A DNA stretch of 40,716 bases, taken from assembly GCA_027623205.1 (NCBI GenBank), contig JAQBYC010000035.1, positions 1-40,716 on the forward strand, read 5' to 3'. The DNA is from Pseudomonadota bacterium (GTDB lineage: Bacteria > Pseudomonadota > Alphaproteobacteria > GCA-2731375). Below are positions 36,683 through 40,716 of the stretch, in pieces (position 1 is the stretch's first letter; every line of letters starts with the position of its first letter). The position numbers and the translations under genes are program-made. The notes beneath the pieces are model-generated. The model worked only from the letters and a program-made list of their open reading frames with translations. It was not told the origin of the DNA and did not search any database.

Positions 36683-36820
36683 TCAGTCATCGTGCAGGAT
36701 ACGTTCGGCGGCGCCGTCCAGATCCTCGAATTGGCCCGAACGTAAGGCCCATAAAAAACCGCCCAAACCTAATAGCCCCAAGAACAGCGCCGCCGGGATC
36801 AATACCAACAATGCGGTCAT
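36683..36820 (-). CDS. ccoS: cbb3 oxidase maturation protein CcoS
   Basis: A 45-residue single-helix protein, too short for most gene callers. The helix (LLVLIPAALFLGLLGLGGFLWAL) starts near residue 4. It is followed by RSGQFEDLDGAAERIL, the classic CcoS ending. Its ATG overlaps the ccoI stop by four bases. CcoS is needed for cofactor insertion into the CcoN subunit of the cbb3 oxidase. Confidence 0.93.
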   Translation of the reverse strand: MTALLVLIPAALFLGLLGLGGFLWALRSGQFEDLDGAAERILHDD

Positions 36821-39018
36821 TGGGCGCCCCTGCCGTTCAGGCGCAAGGCGTTCAGGGTAACCAACAGAGAGGATGACGACATGGCGATGGCAGCGAACAA
36901 GGGCGTTACAAGACCAGCCAGGGCCAGAGGCACGGCAAGGACATTATAAGCCAGAGCCAGGGAAAAGTTTTGCAGGATCAAACGGCGCACCCGCCGGGCC
37001 AATATCAAGGCCATGGCAACCGGAGCCAGGTCCTCGCCCTGAAAGACGAAATCCGCCGCCGCCTGGGCGACATCCGCCGCCCGCGCCGGCGATAGGGAGG
37101 CGTAAGCGGCCGCCAGGGCGGGCGCATCGTTCACGCCATCGCCGATCATCGCCACCTTGCGCCCGGATTGGGCCAGATTTCGCAGGTGGGCCACTTTTTC
37201 ATCGGGTCTGCAATCCGCCCGCCATTGGGAAATCTTTAGCTGCCGGGCCAACGGCGCCACCACCTCGGGCCGGTCGCCGGAAACAATCTCGATCCTCCAG
37301 CCGGCATTCTGCAGCTTTTCAATTACGGCCGCCGCATCCGCCTTGAGTTGGTCGCGAAAGGCCAAGCGAACCTTTGCCTGACCGGGTTGGTGGAACCATA
37401 GTTCGCTGTTGCCATCGCCGGGGCTGGCTGCATCAACGCCGCACCAGACCCGATTGCCCAGGCGCAAGGCCCCTAGCGCCATACCCATGCCGGGATGCTC
37501 ATACGCCTCTGACCGGGCCACCACGGGCCCAGCGGCCCGAACCAGGGCCTGACAAAGAGGATGCCGGCTGCCCGCCGCCAAAGAGGCCGCCCGGGCAAGC
37601 ACCGGAGCGGCAATATCCGCCCCATTGACCAGTTCCGGGCGGCCATGGGTCAGCGTGCCCGTCTTGTCGAAAACCAGGGTATCCACCTCGGCCAGGCGTT
37701 CGAAACCATCTCCTGCCTTGACCAGAATTCCCTGGCGCATGGCCAGGCCCGAGGCCACGACCTGCACCACCGGCACGGCCAGACCCAACGCGCAGGGGCA
37801 GGTGATGATCAACACCGCCACGGCAATCAACAGCGCCGGCTGCCAGTCCAGACCGCCCAGGCCCCACCAACCAAGGAATCCCGCCAACGCCAATAGATGC
37901 ACAGCCGGGGCATAGATCCGGGCGGCCCGGTCCGCCAACCGGACATACGCCGCCTTGCCTTGTTCCGCCGCCGCCGTCAGGCGCACGATTTCCGCCAACA
38001 GGGTGTCATCCCCCGCGGCCGCCACCTTGACCTCCAATGGATGGCTCAAATTCATGATGCCCGCATGGACCCAATCACCAATTTTGACCGATCTTGGCTC
38101 GCTTTCACCGCTGATCAAGCTGGCATCGACCGCGCCCTGGCCAAAGCTGACGCAGCCGTCCACCGGCACCCGGTCGCCCGGCGCCACGCGTACGGTCATA
38201 CCCGCATTCACGGCGCCAATGGGCAAGGCGCGGACCTGACCATCCGCCCCGACCACCCTGGCCGCGACCGCGCCCAGCAGCAACAGCTGTTCCGCTGCCG
38301 AGCGCGCCTTGCTCCGCGCCCGGCGGTCCAGATAACGGCCAATTAAGAGGAAAAACAACAATCCGACCGAGGCGTCAAAATAGGTATGCTGGCCATGGTT
38401 GATGGTTTCATGCAGCGAGGTCGCCGCCGCCAACAGAACCGCCAGGGAAATCGGCAGATCCATATTCATCACGCCGAGGCGCAAAGCCCCCCAAGCGGAG
38501 CGGAAGAAGGGGCGGCCCGCGTAGGCCACGGCCGGCAACGCCACCAGGGCGGAAATCCAATGCAGCAGATCGCGCAGCGCCGGGCCCATGTCGCCCGAGG
38601 CCTCGCCCGCCCAGACCGCAACGGACAACAGCATGACATTCGCGGCGGCGAATCCCGCCACCGCCATGGCCCGCAGCAGGACCTGGTCTTCGTGAGCGGC
38701 GCCATCGCGCAACAGTTCTGGATCGAACGGCACCAGACGGTAGCCCAGCGCCGATACGGCGCCCAGCAATTCTCCGGCCCTTGCTTGATCCGCACGCCAT
38801 TGCAGGGCCAGCCGCCGGGTCGTCAGGTTGACCCGGGCCGAAGTTACCGCATCCTTAGCCGCCAAGGCGTCCTCGATCCGCCGCACGCAGCCACCGCAAT
38901 GGAGGTTTTCCACGGCCAAGTTTAGCGACGCAATACCTGCCCGGTCGGTGCGAATATAGGCGCCGACATCAATCGGCGCATCGGCCGGGATATCCGCTTC
39001 GGGGGCTATTTCAGCCAT
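36817..39018 (-). CDS. ccoI: copper-transporting P-type ATPase CcoI (FixI)
   Basis: A 733-residue P1B-type ATPase that delivers copper for cbb3 oxidase assembly. The N-terminal metal-binding domain has Cys41 and Cys44 (HCGGC). The membrane copper motif is Cys407-Pro-Cys409. The phosphorylated aspartate is Asp451 in DKTGTLTHG, and GDGVNDAPAL is the hinge near the end. Eight membrane helices are expected. The ATG at 39018 is chosen; a TTG at 39033 is also in frame. The start overlaps ccoH by 13 bases. It is flanked by ccoH and ccoS, the normal order. Confidence 0.95.
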   Translation of the reverse strand: MAEIAPEADIPADAPIDVGAYIRTDRAGIASLNLAVENLHCGGCVRRIEDALAAKDAVTSARVNLTTRRLALQWRADQARAGELLGAVSALGYRLVPFDPELLRDGAAHEDQVLLRAMAVAGFAAANVMLLSVAVWAGEASGDMGPALRDLLHWISALVALPAVAYAGRPFFRSAWGALRLGVMNMDLPISLAVLLAAATSLHETINHGQHTYFDASVGLLFFLLIGRYLDRRARSKARSAAEQLLLLGAVAARVVGADGQVRALPIGAVNAGMTVRVAPGDRVPVDGCVSFGQGAVDASLISGESEPRSVKIGDWVHAGIMNLSHPLEVKVAAAGDDTLLAEIVRLTAAAEQGKAAYVRLADRAARIYAPAVHLLALAGFLGWWGLGGLDWQPALLIAVAVLIITCPCALGLAVPVVQVVASGLAMRQGILVKAGDGFERLAEVDTLVFDKTGTLTHGRPELVNGADIAAPVLARAASLAAGSRHPLCQALVRAAGPVVARSEAYEHPGMGMALGALRLGNRVWCGVDAASPGDGNSELWFHQPGQAKVRLAFRDQLKADAAAVIEKLQNAGWRIEIVSGDRPEVVAPLARQLKISQWRADCRPDEKVAHLRNLAQSGRKVAMIGDGVNDAPALAAAYASLSPARAADVAQAAADFVFQGEDLAPVAMALILARRVRRLILQNFSLALAYNVLAVPLALAGLVTPLFAAIAMSSSSLLVTLNALRLNGRGAQ

Positions 39019-39491
39019 AGCCGCTTCCGCCAACGATAGTCTATGCCGTCATGGGCCCTGTCGCCGGCTTGCGCCAACAGCCGCAAATCCCACTGCCCGG
39101 GCGGCATTGCCCCGGTAACGGCGCGATAGTCGCCGTTGCCAGCCGCTGCGAACGCCAGGGCCAGGTCGCTGGCTTGATGCGTTGGGCGGCGCAATTGGCC
39201 GGACAAGTTCAGATCTTCCAAAGGCCGGCCGTGGCGATCCTCGACCCGAACGTGCAGGACAAGCTGCCGCCCCGGCACTGTTTGCGTGGCGGTCGCGGTT
39301 ACCTGCCAGCCAGCGGCCTGTTGCGTCCGGCCCCGGGCCAGCGTACGGTTGAAGTTCAACCCTTTGACATAGGCATTCTCTGTCGACAGGCCGCTGAAAC
39401 TGCTTAAAGCGAAATAAAGGAAGATGCCATTAACGACCAGGATCACGGCGAAAAAACCTAACAGCATGGCCAATGCCTTGCGCCCGGTCAC
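39006..39491 (-). CDS. ccoH: cbb3 oxidase assembly protein CcoH (FixH)
   Basis: A 161-residue membrane protein with one N-terminal helix (ALAMLLGFFAVILVVNGIFLY) and a periplasmic FixH domain. The family segment STENAYVKGLNFNRTLA is near residues 36-52. It helps assemble or stabilise the cbb3 oxidase. It overlaps ccoG by four bases upstream and ccoI by 13 bases downstream, so the operon is tightly coupled. Confidence 0.92.
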   Translation of the reverse strand: MTGRKALAMLLGFFAVILVVNGIFLYFALSSFSGLSTENAYVKGLNFNRTLARGRTQQAAGWQVTATATQTVPGRQLVLHVRVEDRHGRPLEDLNLSGQLRRPTHQASDLALAFAAAGNGDYRAVTGAMPPGQWDLRLLAQAGDRAHDGIDYRWRKRLWLK

Positions 39492-40633
39492 CGTTTGGGA
39501 CCTCGGAAGACGGTTCTATTCTCCGCCGAGACGCCATTTTCCTGGTCCAGTATCAGCAAACGGATGTCGGTGGTGTCGCCCGTCAGATTGGCCTTGGCGG
39601 TTGAAACCAGCACGCGAAAACTGGCCAGCTGGTCCGGCGGTACGGTAAACAAAGGCGCATGGTCGTCGCGGCCGATCACCTTGATCACCGCATCCGGAAA
39701 ACCGTCCAGGGTCAGGCGGAAATGCCGGGTCTGATGTATTTTGTTAAGAATTTTCACGGTGTAGCCGTTGCGAATATCACCATTGGACAGCGTAACGAAT
39801 AATGGATTGCGGTCGCGCTGCACGTTCAGTTCCAAGACCGGACGGGTCAACAAGGCAGCCAGCATGATAGCGCCAACAACAGCGATCAGGACGCCATAGA
39901 GTATGGTGCGGGGACGCAGCAGGCGAATTTGGCTGCGCTGCAGTTCTTTGCCCTTATCAAGATTGGCCAGAGTGTTGTAGCCGATCAGACCACGCGGTTT
40001 GCCGACCTTATCCATCACGCTGTTGCAGGCATCAACGCACAAGGCGCAGGAAATACATTCCAACTGCATGCCGTCGCGAATATCGATACCCATGGGGCAG
40101 ACCACAACACATTGATTGCAATTGACGCAGTCGCCCAAGCCATCCCGGCGCCCGCCTCTGCCCCTGGGCTCGCCCCGCCGTTCCTGATACGAAATGATCA
40201 GGGAATCCTCGTCAATCATGGCGGACTGAATGCGTGGCCAGGGGCACATGTAGGTGCACACCTGTTCCCGCGCCAGACCGCCCAGGGCATAGGTCGTCGC
40301 GGTCAGCACCCCAACCGAAATGTAAGCAATCTCTTCCGCCTGCAAGGTGAACAAGTCCACCAGCAAGGTCGGTGCATCGGCGAAGTAAAATGCCCAGGCA
40401 CCGCCCGTCAGCGCCGCGATGGCCAGCCAGATACCGTGTTTTACAAGCCGTTTGGCAATCTTGGGCAATGTCCAGGCCGAGTCTTCCAAACGAATCCGTG
40501 CATTGCGGTCGCCTTCGATGAAGCGTTCGATGATCAGAAACAGATCGACCCAAACCGTCTGTGGACAGGCATAACCGCACCAGACCCGACCGGCGGCCGC
40601 CGTAAACAGAAACAGAGCCAGAGCGGCGATCAC
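39488..40633 (-). CDS. ccoG: cbb3 accessory polyferredoxin CcoG (FixG), 5'-truncated
   Basis: The visible part has 381 residues from a GTG, but family similarity begins further upstream (VYITGILVIAALA, to about base 40654). It has membrane helices, GRVWCGYACPQTVW and EQVCTYMCPWPRIQ, two ferredoxin-type clusters (CVNCNQCVVVCP and CISCALCVDAC) and a C-terminal Ig-like domain. CcoG reduces copper for oxidase assembly. The roughly 80 N-terminal residues (a first helix and linker) are missing. A TGA stop at 40661-40663 in the same frame ends the readable part, and the sequence beyond does not resemble the family. Either the gene is broken or the window edge is a junction. Confidence 0.9.
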   Translation of the reverse strand: MIAALALFLFTAAAGRVWCGYACPQTVWVDLFLIIERFIEGDRNARIRLEDSAWTLPKIAKRLVKHGIWLAIAALTGGAWAFYFADAPTLLVDLFTLQAEEIAYISVGVLTATTYALGGLAREQVCTYMCPWPRIQSAMIDEDSLIISYQERRGEPRGRGGRRDGLGDCVNCNQCVVVCPMGIDIRDGMQLECISCALCVDACNSVMDKVGKPRGLIGYNTLANLDKGKELQRSQIRLLRPRTILYGVLIAVVGAIMLAALLTRPVLELNVQRDRNPLFVTLSNGDIRNGYTVKILNKIHQTRHFRLTLDGFPDAVIKVIGRDDHAPLFTVPPDQLASFRVLVSTAKANLTGDTTDIRLLILDQENGVSAENRTVFRGPKR

Positions 40634-40655
40634 CAGGATGCCGGTGATGTATACT

Positions 40656-40716
40656 CCGACTCATTGAGTAAGCGAAAAATCCTTGCCAAATTCATTTTAA
40701 AGGATTCTTGTTGTCA
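40656..40716. other. AT-rich terminal segment not belonging to ccoG
   Basis: The last ~60 bases are much richer in A and T than the rest and do not encode the missing CcoG N-terminus in any frame. They hold an inverted repeat, AATCCTT and AAGGATT around a ~15-base centre. A minus-strand frame opens with MNLARIFRLL but stops soon inside ccoG. This fits a mobile-element edge or a mis-joined contig end. Confidence 0.5.

Follow-up and report, generated by a model that had tools for sequence, protein, structure and literature searches.

An insertion-sequence end at the edge of a contig explains a truncated ccoG in an alphaproteobacterial draft genome

Why does ccoG stop short where this contig ends? 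The window analyzed here, 40,716 nucleotides long, is an entire contig (C81) of a draft genome that totals 5.02 Mb over 228 contigs, and ccoG runs on its minus strand from the right end of the contig to a stop at 39488. A sequence-only reading had concluded that ccoG is cut at the edge, either by an insertion or rearrangement that removed the first helix of CcoG or because the assembly joined foreign sequence there. Our analysis attributes the end of the window to an IS630-family insertion in ccoG together with a repeat-induced contig break, an explanation to which we assign a probability of roughly 0.94.

The boundary and the two parts of ccoG

That ccoG is cut at the edge was borne out. Based on the TIGR02745 (CcoG) profile and alignment to the intact ccoG of a relative (L052, 81% protein identity), CcoG homology ends at 40651, placing the boundary at 40651/40652, with an insertion sequence (IS) end beyond it. 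Similarity had previously been drawn to about 40654; the boundary is real, and its position was off by 3 bases. The coding frame is intact up to 40651, and beyond it lie the in-frame TGA already pointed out at 40661-40663 and a second in-frame stop, TAA at 40697-40699. The terminal ~60 bases had been described as AT-rich and unrelated, and both hold: the 65 terminal bases (40652-40716) are unrelated to ccoG, and the GC content of the last 67 bases is 34% versus 61% for the window, the lowest among the 67-base stretches tested. The features of this end of the contig are listed in Table 1.

Table 1. Features at the right end of the window (minus-strand genes and the adjoining IS end)
Feature	Position	Strand	Basis
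Probable ccoS, 45 aa	36683..36820	-	ORF after ccoI; named by position and size only
ccoI, copper P-type ATPase	36817..39033	-	TIGR01511, 499 bits; named from its place after ccoGH; downstream of the insertion
ccoH (FixH)	39006..39491	-	Pfam FixH PF05751, 132 bits; downstream of the insertion
3' ccoG, 387 codons plus a stop	39488..40651	-	TIGR02745, 462 bits; Pfam Fer4_18 and FixG_C
TA target duplication, one copy	40650..40651		Second copy at L132:74-75; a single TA restores the frame
Putative IS630-family IS end E1, 65 bases to the contig stop	40652..40716	+	Repeat at 17 other places; transposase-like C terminus in E2; similar Loktanella IS630 ends
Terminal inverted repeat region, 31 bases	40652..40682		Exact in 18 copies

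The window part of ccoG starts at the second membrane helix and contains the Fe4S region and the FixG_C domain. It scores well above the TIGR02745 cut-off of 316.7 bits and covers profile positions 53-433 of 435; thus, about 52 N-terminal CcoG profile positions are missing there. A profile search located the remainder, positions 1-55, on contig C152 (4003 bases) in a 112-aa frame, which reads to WPQEIYY and then meets a different repeat end (L132:1-75). The window half resumes after the cut with ITGILVIAAL, so that both halves stop at one tyrosine codon, each against an IS end. TA is present at the cut on both flanks; counting one TA gives a continuous frame, WPQEIYYITGIL, that aligns gap-free to L052, and counting zero or two breaks the frame. 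By eye, the cut separates the hydrophobic stretch LKWAVMTVTLAVYYLAPW from YITGILVIAALALFLF. These junctions place the split in ccoG between membrane helices one and two and make it the product of a TA-duplicating insertion. The insertion suggested in the sequence-only reading therefore stands, as an IS630-family element at TA; the deletion of the first helix was rejected, since that helix is found in the frame on C152. Each of the two contigs thus carries one half of CcoG, which breaks off at an IS end. An intact second ccoG elsewhere was also rejected, as a search of the genome with the window part as query matched only the window itself.

The repeat at the edge and its family

The contig end has 17 matches elsewhere in the genome at 96-100% identity; 16 lie at contig ends, and the remaining one, on C133, is beside another IS end near the contig start. 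The contig end is therefore repeated in the genome, rather than being AT-rich by chance. Its outer 31 bases gave 18 exact genome matches versus 0 for a reversed control pattern. All copies of this end, E1, have a common outer edge beyond which the flanking sequence differs from copy to copy, and TA follows in 18/18 (TA makes up 2.4% of window dinucleotides). The proposal that the assembler had joined foreign sequence was rejected, as the boundary is a real IS edge, identical at 18 flanks.

A second end, E2, was located 20 times in the genome, with TA next to it in 19. The exception, on C127 (L158, G000:C127:1-21), has CA instead, which may reflect a deletion or rearrangement there. Over their outer ~35 bases, E1 and E2 form imperfect inverted repeats, with AAGGATTTT and an outer GTA in common; here, the two IS ends are TACTCCGACT and GCGGGGTA. 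The genome holds about 18-20 near-identical copies of the element.

Other repeats border contigs of this genome. The window also begins in a repeat (1-68), found at 40 or more places (40 matches, with 40 of 49 candidates scored); it has repeated CCGGACAT-like units and by its appearance is presumably an IS21-type end. A further IS21-like end, TGTCAGTAGCGAATGATATGTCCGG, is found immediately ahead of ccoN on C152 (L132 3952-4003) and at both ends of C133 (L031 1-67 and 4623-4688). On C133 it abuts E1, which suggests that one IS has inserted into the other.

The family assignment draws on the coding capacity of E2 and on the form of both ends. E2 encodes CDDVSDNFRIISPKDFRVLR followed by a stop, and C204 extends this peptide by three residues. 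Searching plasmids by tblastn with the peptide matched four records, from a Methylocystis plasmid (E 0.004), Sulfitobacter, Loktanella, and Octadecabacter; taken one by one, the matches are weak (E 0.004 to 5), the visible transposase being the C-terminal 20-23 residues. The Loktanella and Octadecabacter records are annotated IS630 family transposases, similar at the C terminus, and by eye, the Methylocystis match sits in a broken IS630-like transposase whose end has a similar inverted repeat. The Loktanella salsilacus element (WP_254246941.1, L173) covers 1139 bp between its TAs, and its ends, TACTCCGAGT and GGCGGTA, resemble E1 and E2 in form; it is the only element compared in this way, as the ends of the Octadecabacter IS630 (L174) gave no clean alignment at the corresponding places. 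The transposase at E1 would read on the plus strand, toward the missing side.

IS630 family transposases have a DDE/DDD catalytic triad. The IS interior, including this catalytic part, was on none of the contigs read, and the five DDE_3 matches in the genome were all away from E1 and E2 ends. An interior of ~1 kb would have collapsed and been dropped from the draft.

Searches outside this genome returned little. The exact IS ends had 0 and 0 matches in viral contigs; in the plasmid collection, E1 DNA had none, and the one match otherwise, to Methylocystis, was weak. Among 143 genomes, E1 had two weak, short matches outside its own genome, and a search of the ten other genus members returned no match to the IS end.

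The cco cluster, its relatives, and a second interrupted gene

C152 carries CcoN, CcoO, and CcoP above NCBIfam cut-offs, then 5' ccoG, and its FixO match is the sole one in the genome. Between ccoO and ccoP lies a small frame (L132:1305-1517) in the position expected for ccoQ, for which it is a candidate by place. C133, with a COX1 match and an E1 end, was considered as the ccoN contig and rejected, as the operon it carries is, by eye, that of a different oxidase, and C152 has both ccoN and ccoO. Other COX1-type oxidase genes are present in the genome.

Eight of the 11 genus genomes, including this one, have a CcoG match; none was found in G001, G004, and G008. The YYITG codons at the insertion site are intact in 6 of the 7 other genomes with CcoG (L175, L176, L178-L181), so the insertion is not common to the genus. 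L179 and L052, the alignment reference used above, are probably from one genome. In the remaining relative (G007, 84% complete; L177, G007:C202), TAA replaces the second tyrosine codon, the site of the IS in the present genome. This stop is ~57 bases from a contig end and is possibly a sequence error. Cut-and-paste excision of IS630 elements might in principle restore or scar the genes they cut, and we set the stop at the identical codon in the sister genome beside that idea as an observation.

We found the same pair of ends in a second gene. Contig C36 (L133 1-235) starts with E1 and continues in frame into the C-terminal 56 residues of CtrA, the sole match in the genome to a CtrA C-terminal search. 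In the stretches of this genome examined by tblastn with intact CtrA from G010 (L183), residues 2-178 lie on C2, at whose right end (L154) the CtrA part ends at E2, and residues 178-234 lie on C36. TA is present on both sides of the ctrA junctions. The IS thus cuts the sole recognizable ctrA as well, oriented to that gene as it is to ccoG. The cckA-chpT-ctrA phosphorelay is called essential in Caulobacter (PMC3692519), and the disruption of ctrA by an IS may be of interest to cell-cycle specialists. A reading that we consider unlikely is of a lineage in active IS expansion, in which one recently amplified IS, by cutting both ccoG and ctrA, is dismantling core functions.

Origin of the break and comparison with known systems

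We propose that an IS630-family (Tc1/mariner-like) element transposed into a TA of ccoG, between the codons for helices 1 and 2. The insertion would have divided the cluster into ccoN, ccoO, ccoP, and 5' ccoG on C152 and 3' ccoG, ccoH, ccoI, and probable ccoS on C81. With ~18-20 near-identical copies in the genome, the assembler would stop some 65 bases inside the element. The draft thus breaks at ccoG because a multi-copy IS repeat was not resolved in assembly, and the window ends where it does because assembly stops ~65 bases inside the IS copies. A single simple cut-and-paste insertion would join C152 and C81, an adjacency suggested by the codon-exact continuity of the two halves.

The same copies provide many substrates for recombination between elements, and the draft cannot show which contigs adjoin. 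An inversion or other rearrangement could thus have followed the insertion in ccoG and separated the cco halves, leaving C152 and C81 no longer neighbors. We regard this as unlikely, as it requires an extra event and as ccoG and ctrA each have a matching E2/E1 pair in one orientation, as simple insertion predicts. A mixed population, with intact ccoG in some cells and the insertion in others, would be conceivable if the genome is a metagenome bin; no contig of the assembly carries an uninterrupted ccoG, however, and we rate this as quite unlikely. An artefact of assembly or binning, in which the repeat tail was misattached or C81 and C152 belong to separate organisms, might be suspected in a draft of 228 contigs with a contig end exactly at the anomaly. 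It is very improbable, given that 18 different flanks start at one outer repeat base with TA, that the halves fit to the base, and that CcoG and FixO each have a single match in the genome. Simple insertion followed by a contig break remains the reading we prefer.

Under simple insertion, CcoG would be inactive, and ccoHIS would lose, or have reduced, transcription from the ccoN side through a polar effect. CcoG is described as a cupric reductase that aids cbb3 assembly (PMC8475189). In Campylobacter jejuni, cbb3 activity falls by about half when ccoG is lost and disappears when ccoI or ccoS is lost (PMC8267372). Because of the latter, a polar effect would outweigh the loss of CcoG.

The event is an ordinary IS insertion and an ordinary repeat-induced contig break, not a new system. 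A narrowly worded literature search found no paper on an insertion sequence in ccoG/fixG, though such papers may exist. The biology is modest: a common IS knocks out, or makes polar, an assembly gene for a high-affinity oxidase in an IS-rich draft. The window edge is fully explained, a warning against reading such a case as an unexplained loss of ccoG or as contig chimerism.

Compared with known systems, the element differs from the IS630 family as described in that its catalytic domain is unseen, its interior being absent from the contigs read. It resembles the IS630/ISY100/Tc1-mariner elements in its TA duplication, its imperfect terminal inverted repeats, and a transposase-like C terminus that reaches into the inverted repeat. 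Insertion at TA with duplication of the TA is described for IS630/Tc1/mariner elements (PMC2170065); both this and terminal inverted repeats were found here. The genes follow the ccoNOQP-ccoGHIS (fixNOQP-fixGHIS) cluster of Alphaproteobacteria, in the order ccoN, ccoO, ccoP, ccoG, ccoH, ccoI, and probable ccoS; unlike that cluster, here an IS interrupts ccoG, and ccoN is immediately preceded by an IS21-like end.
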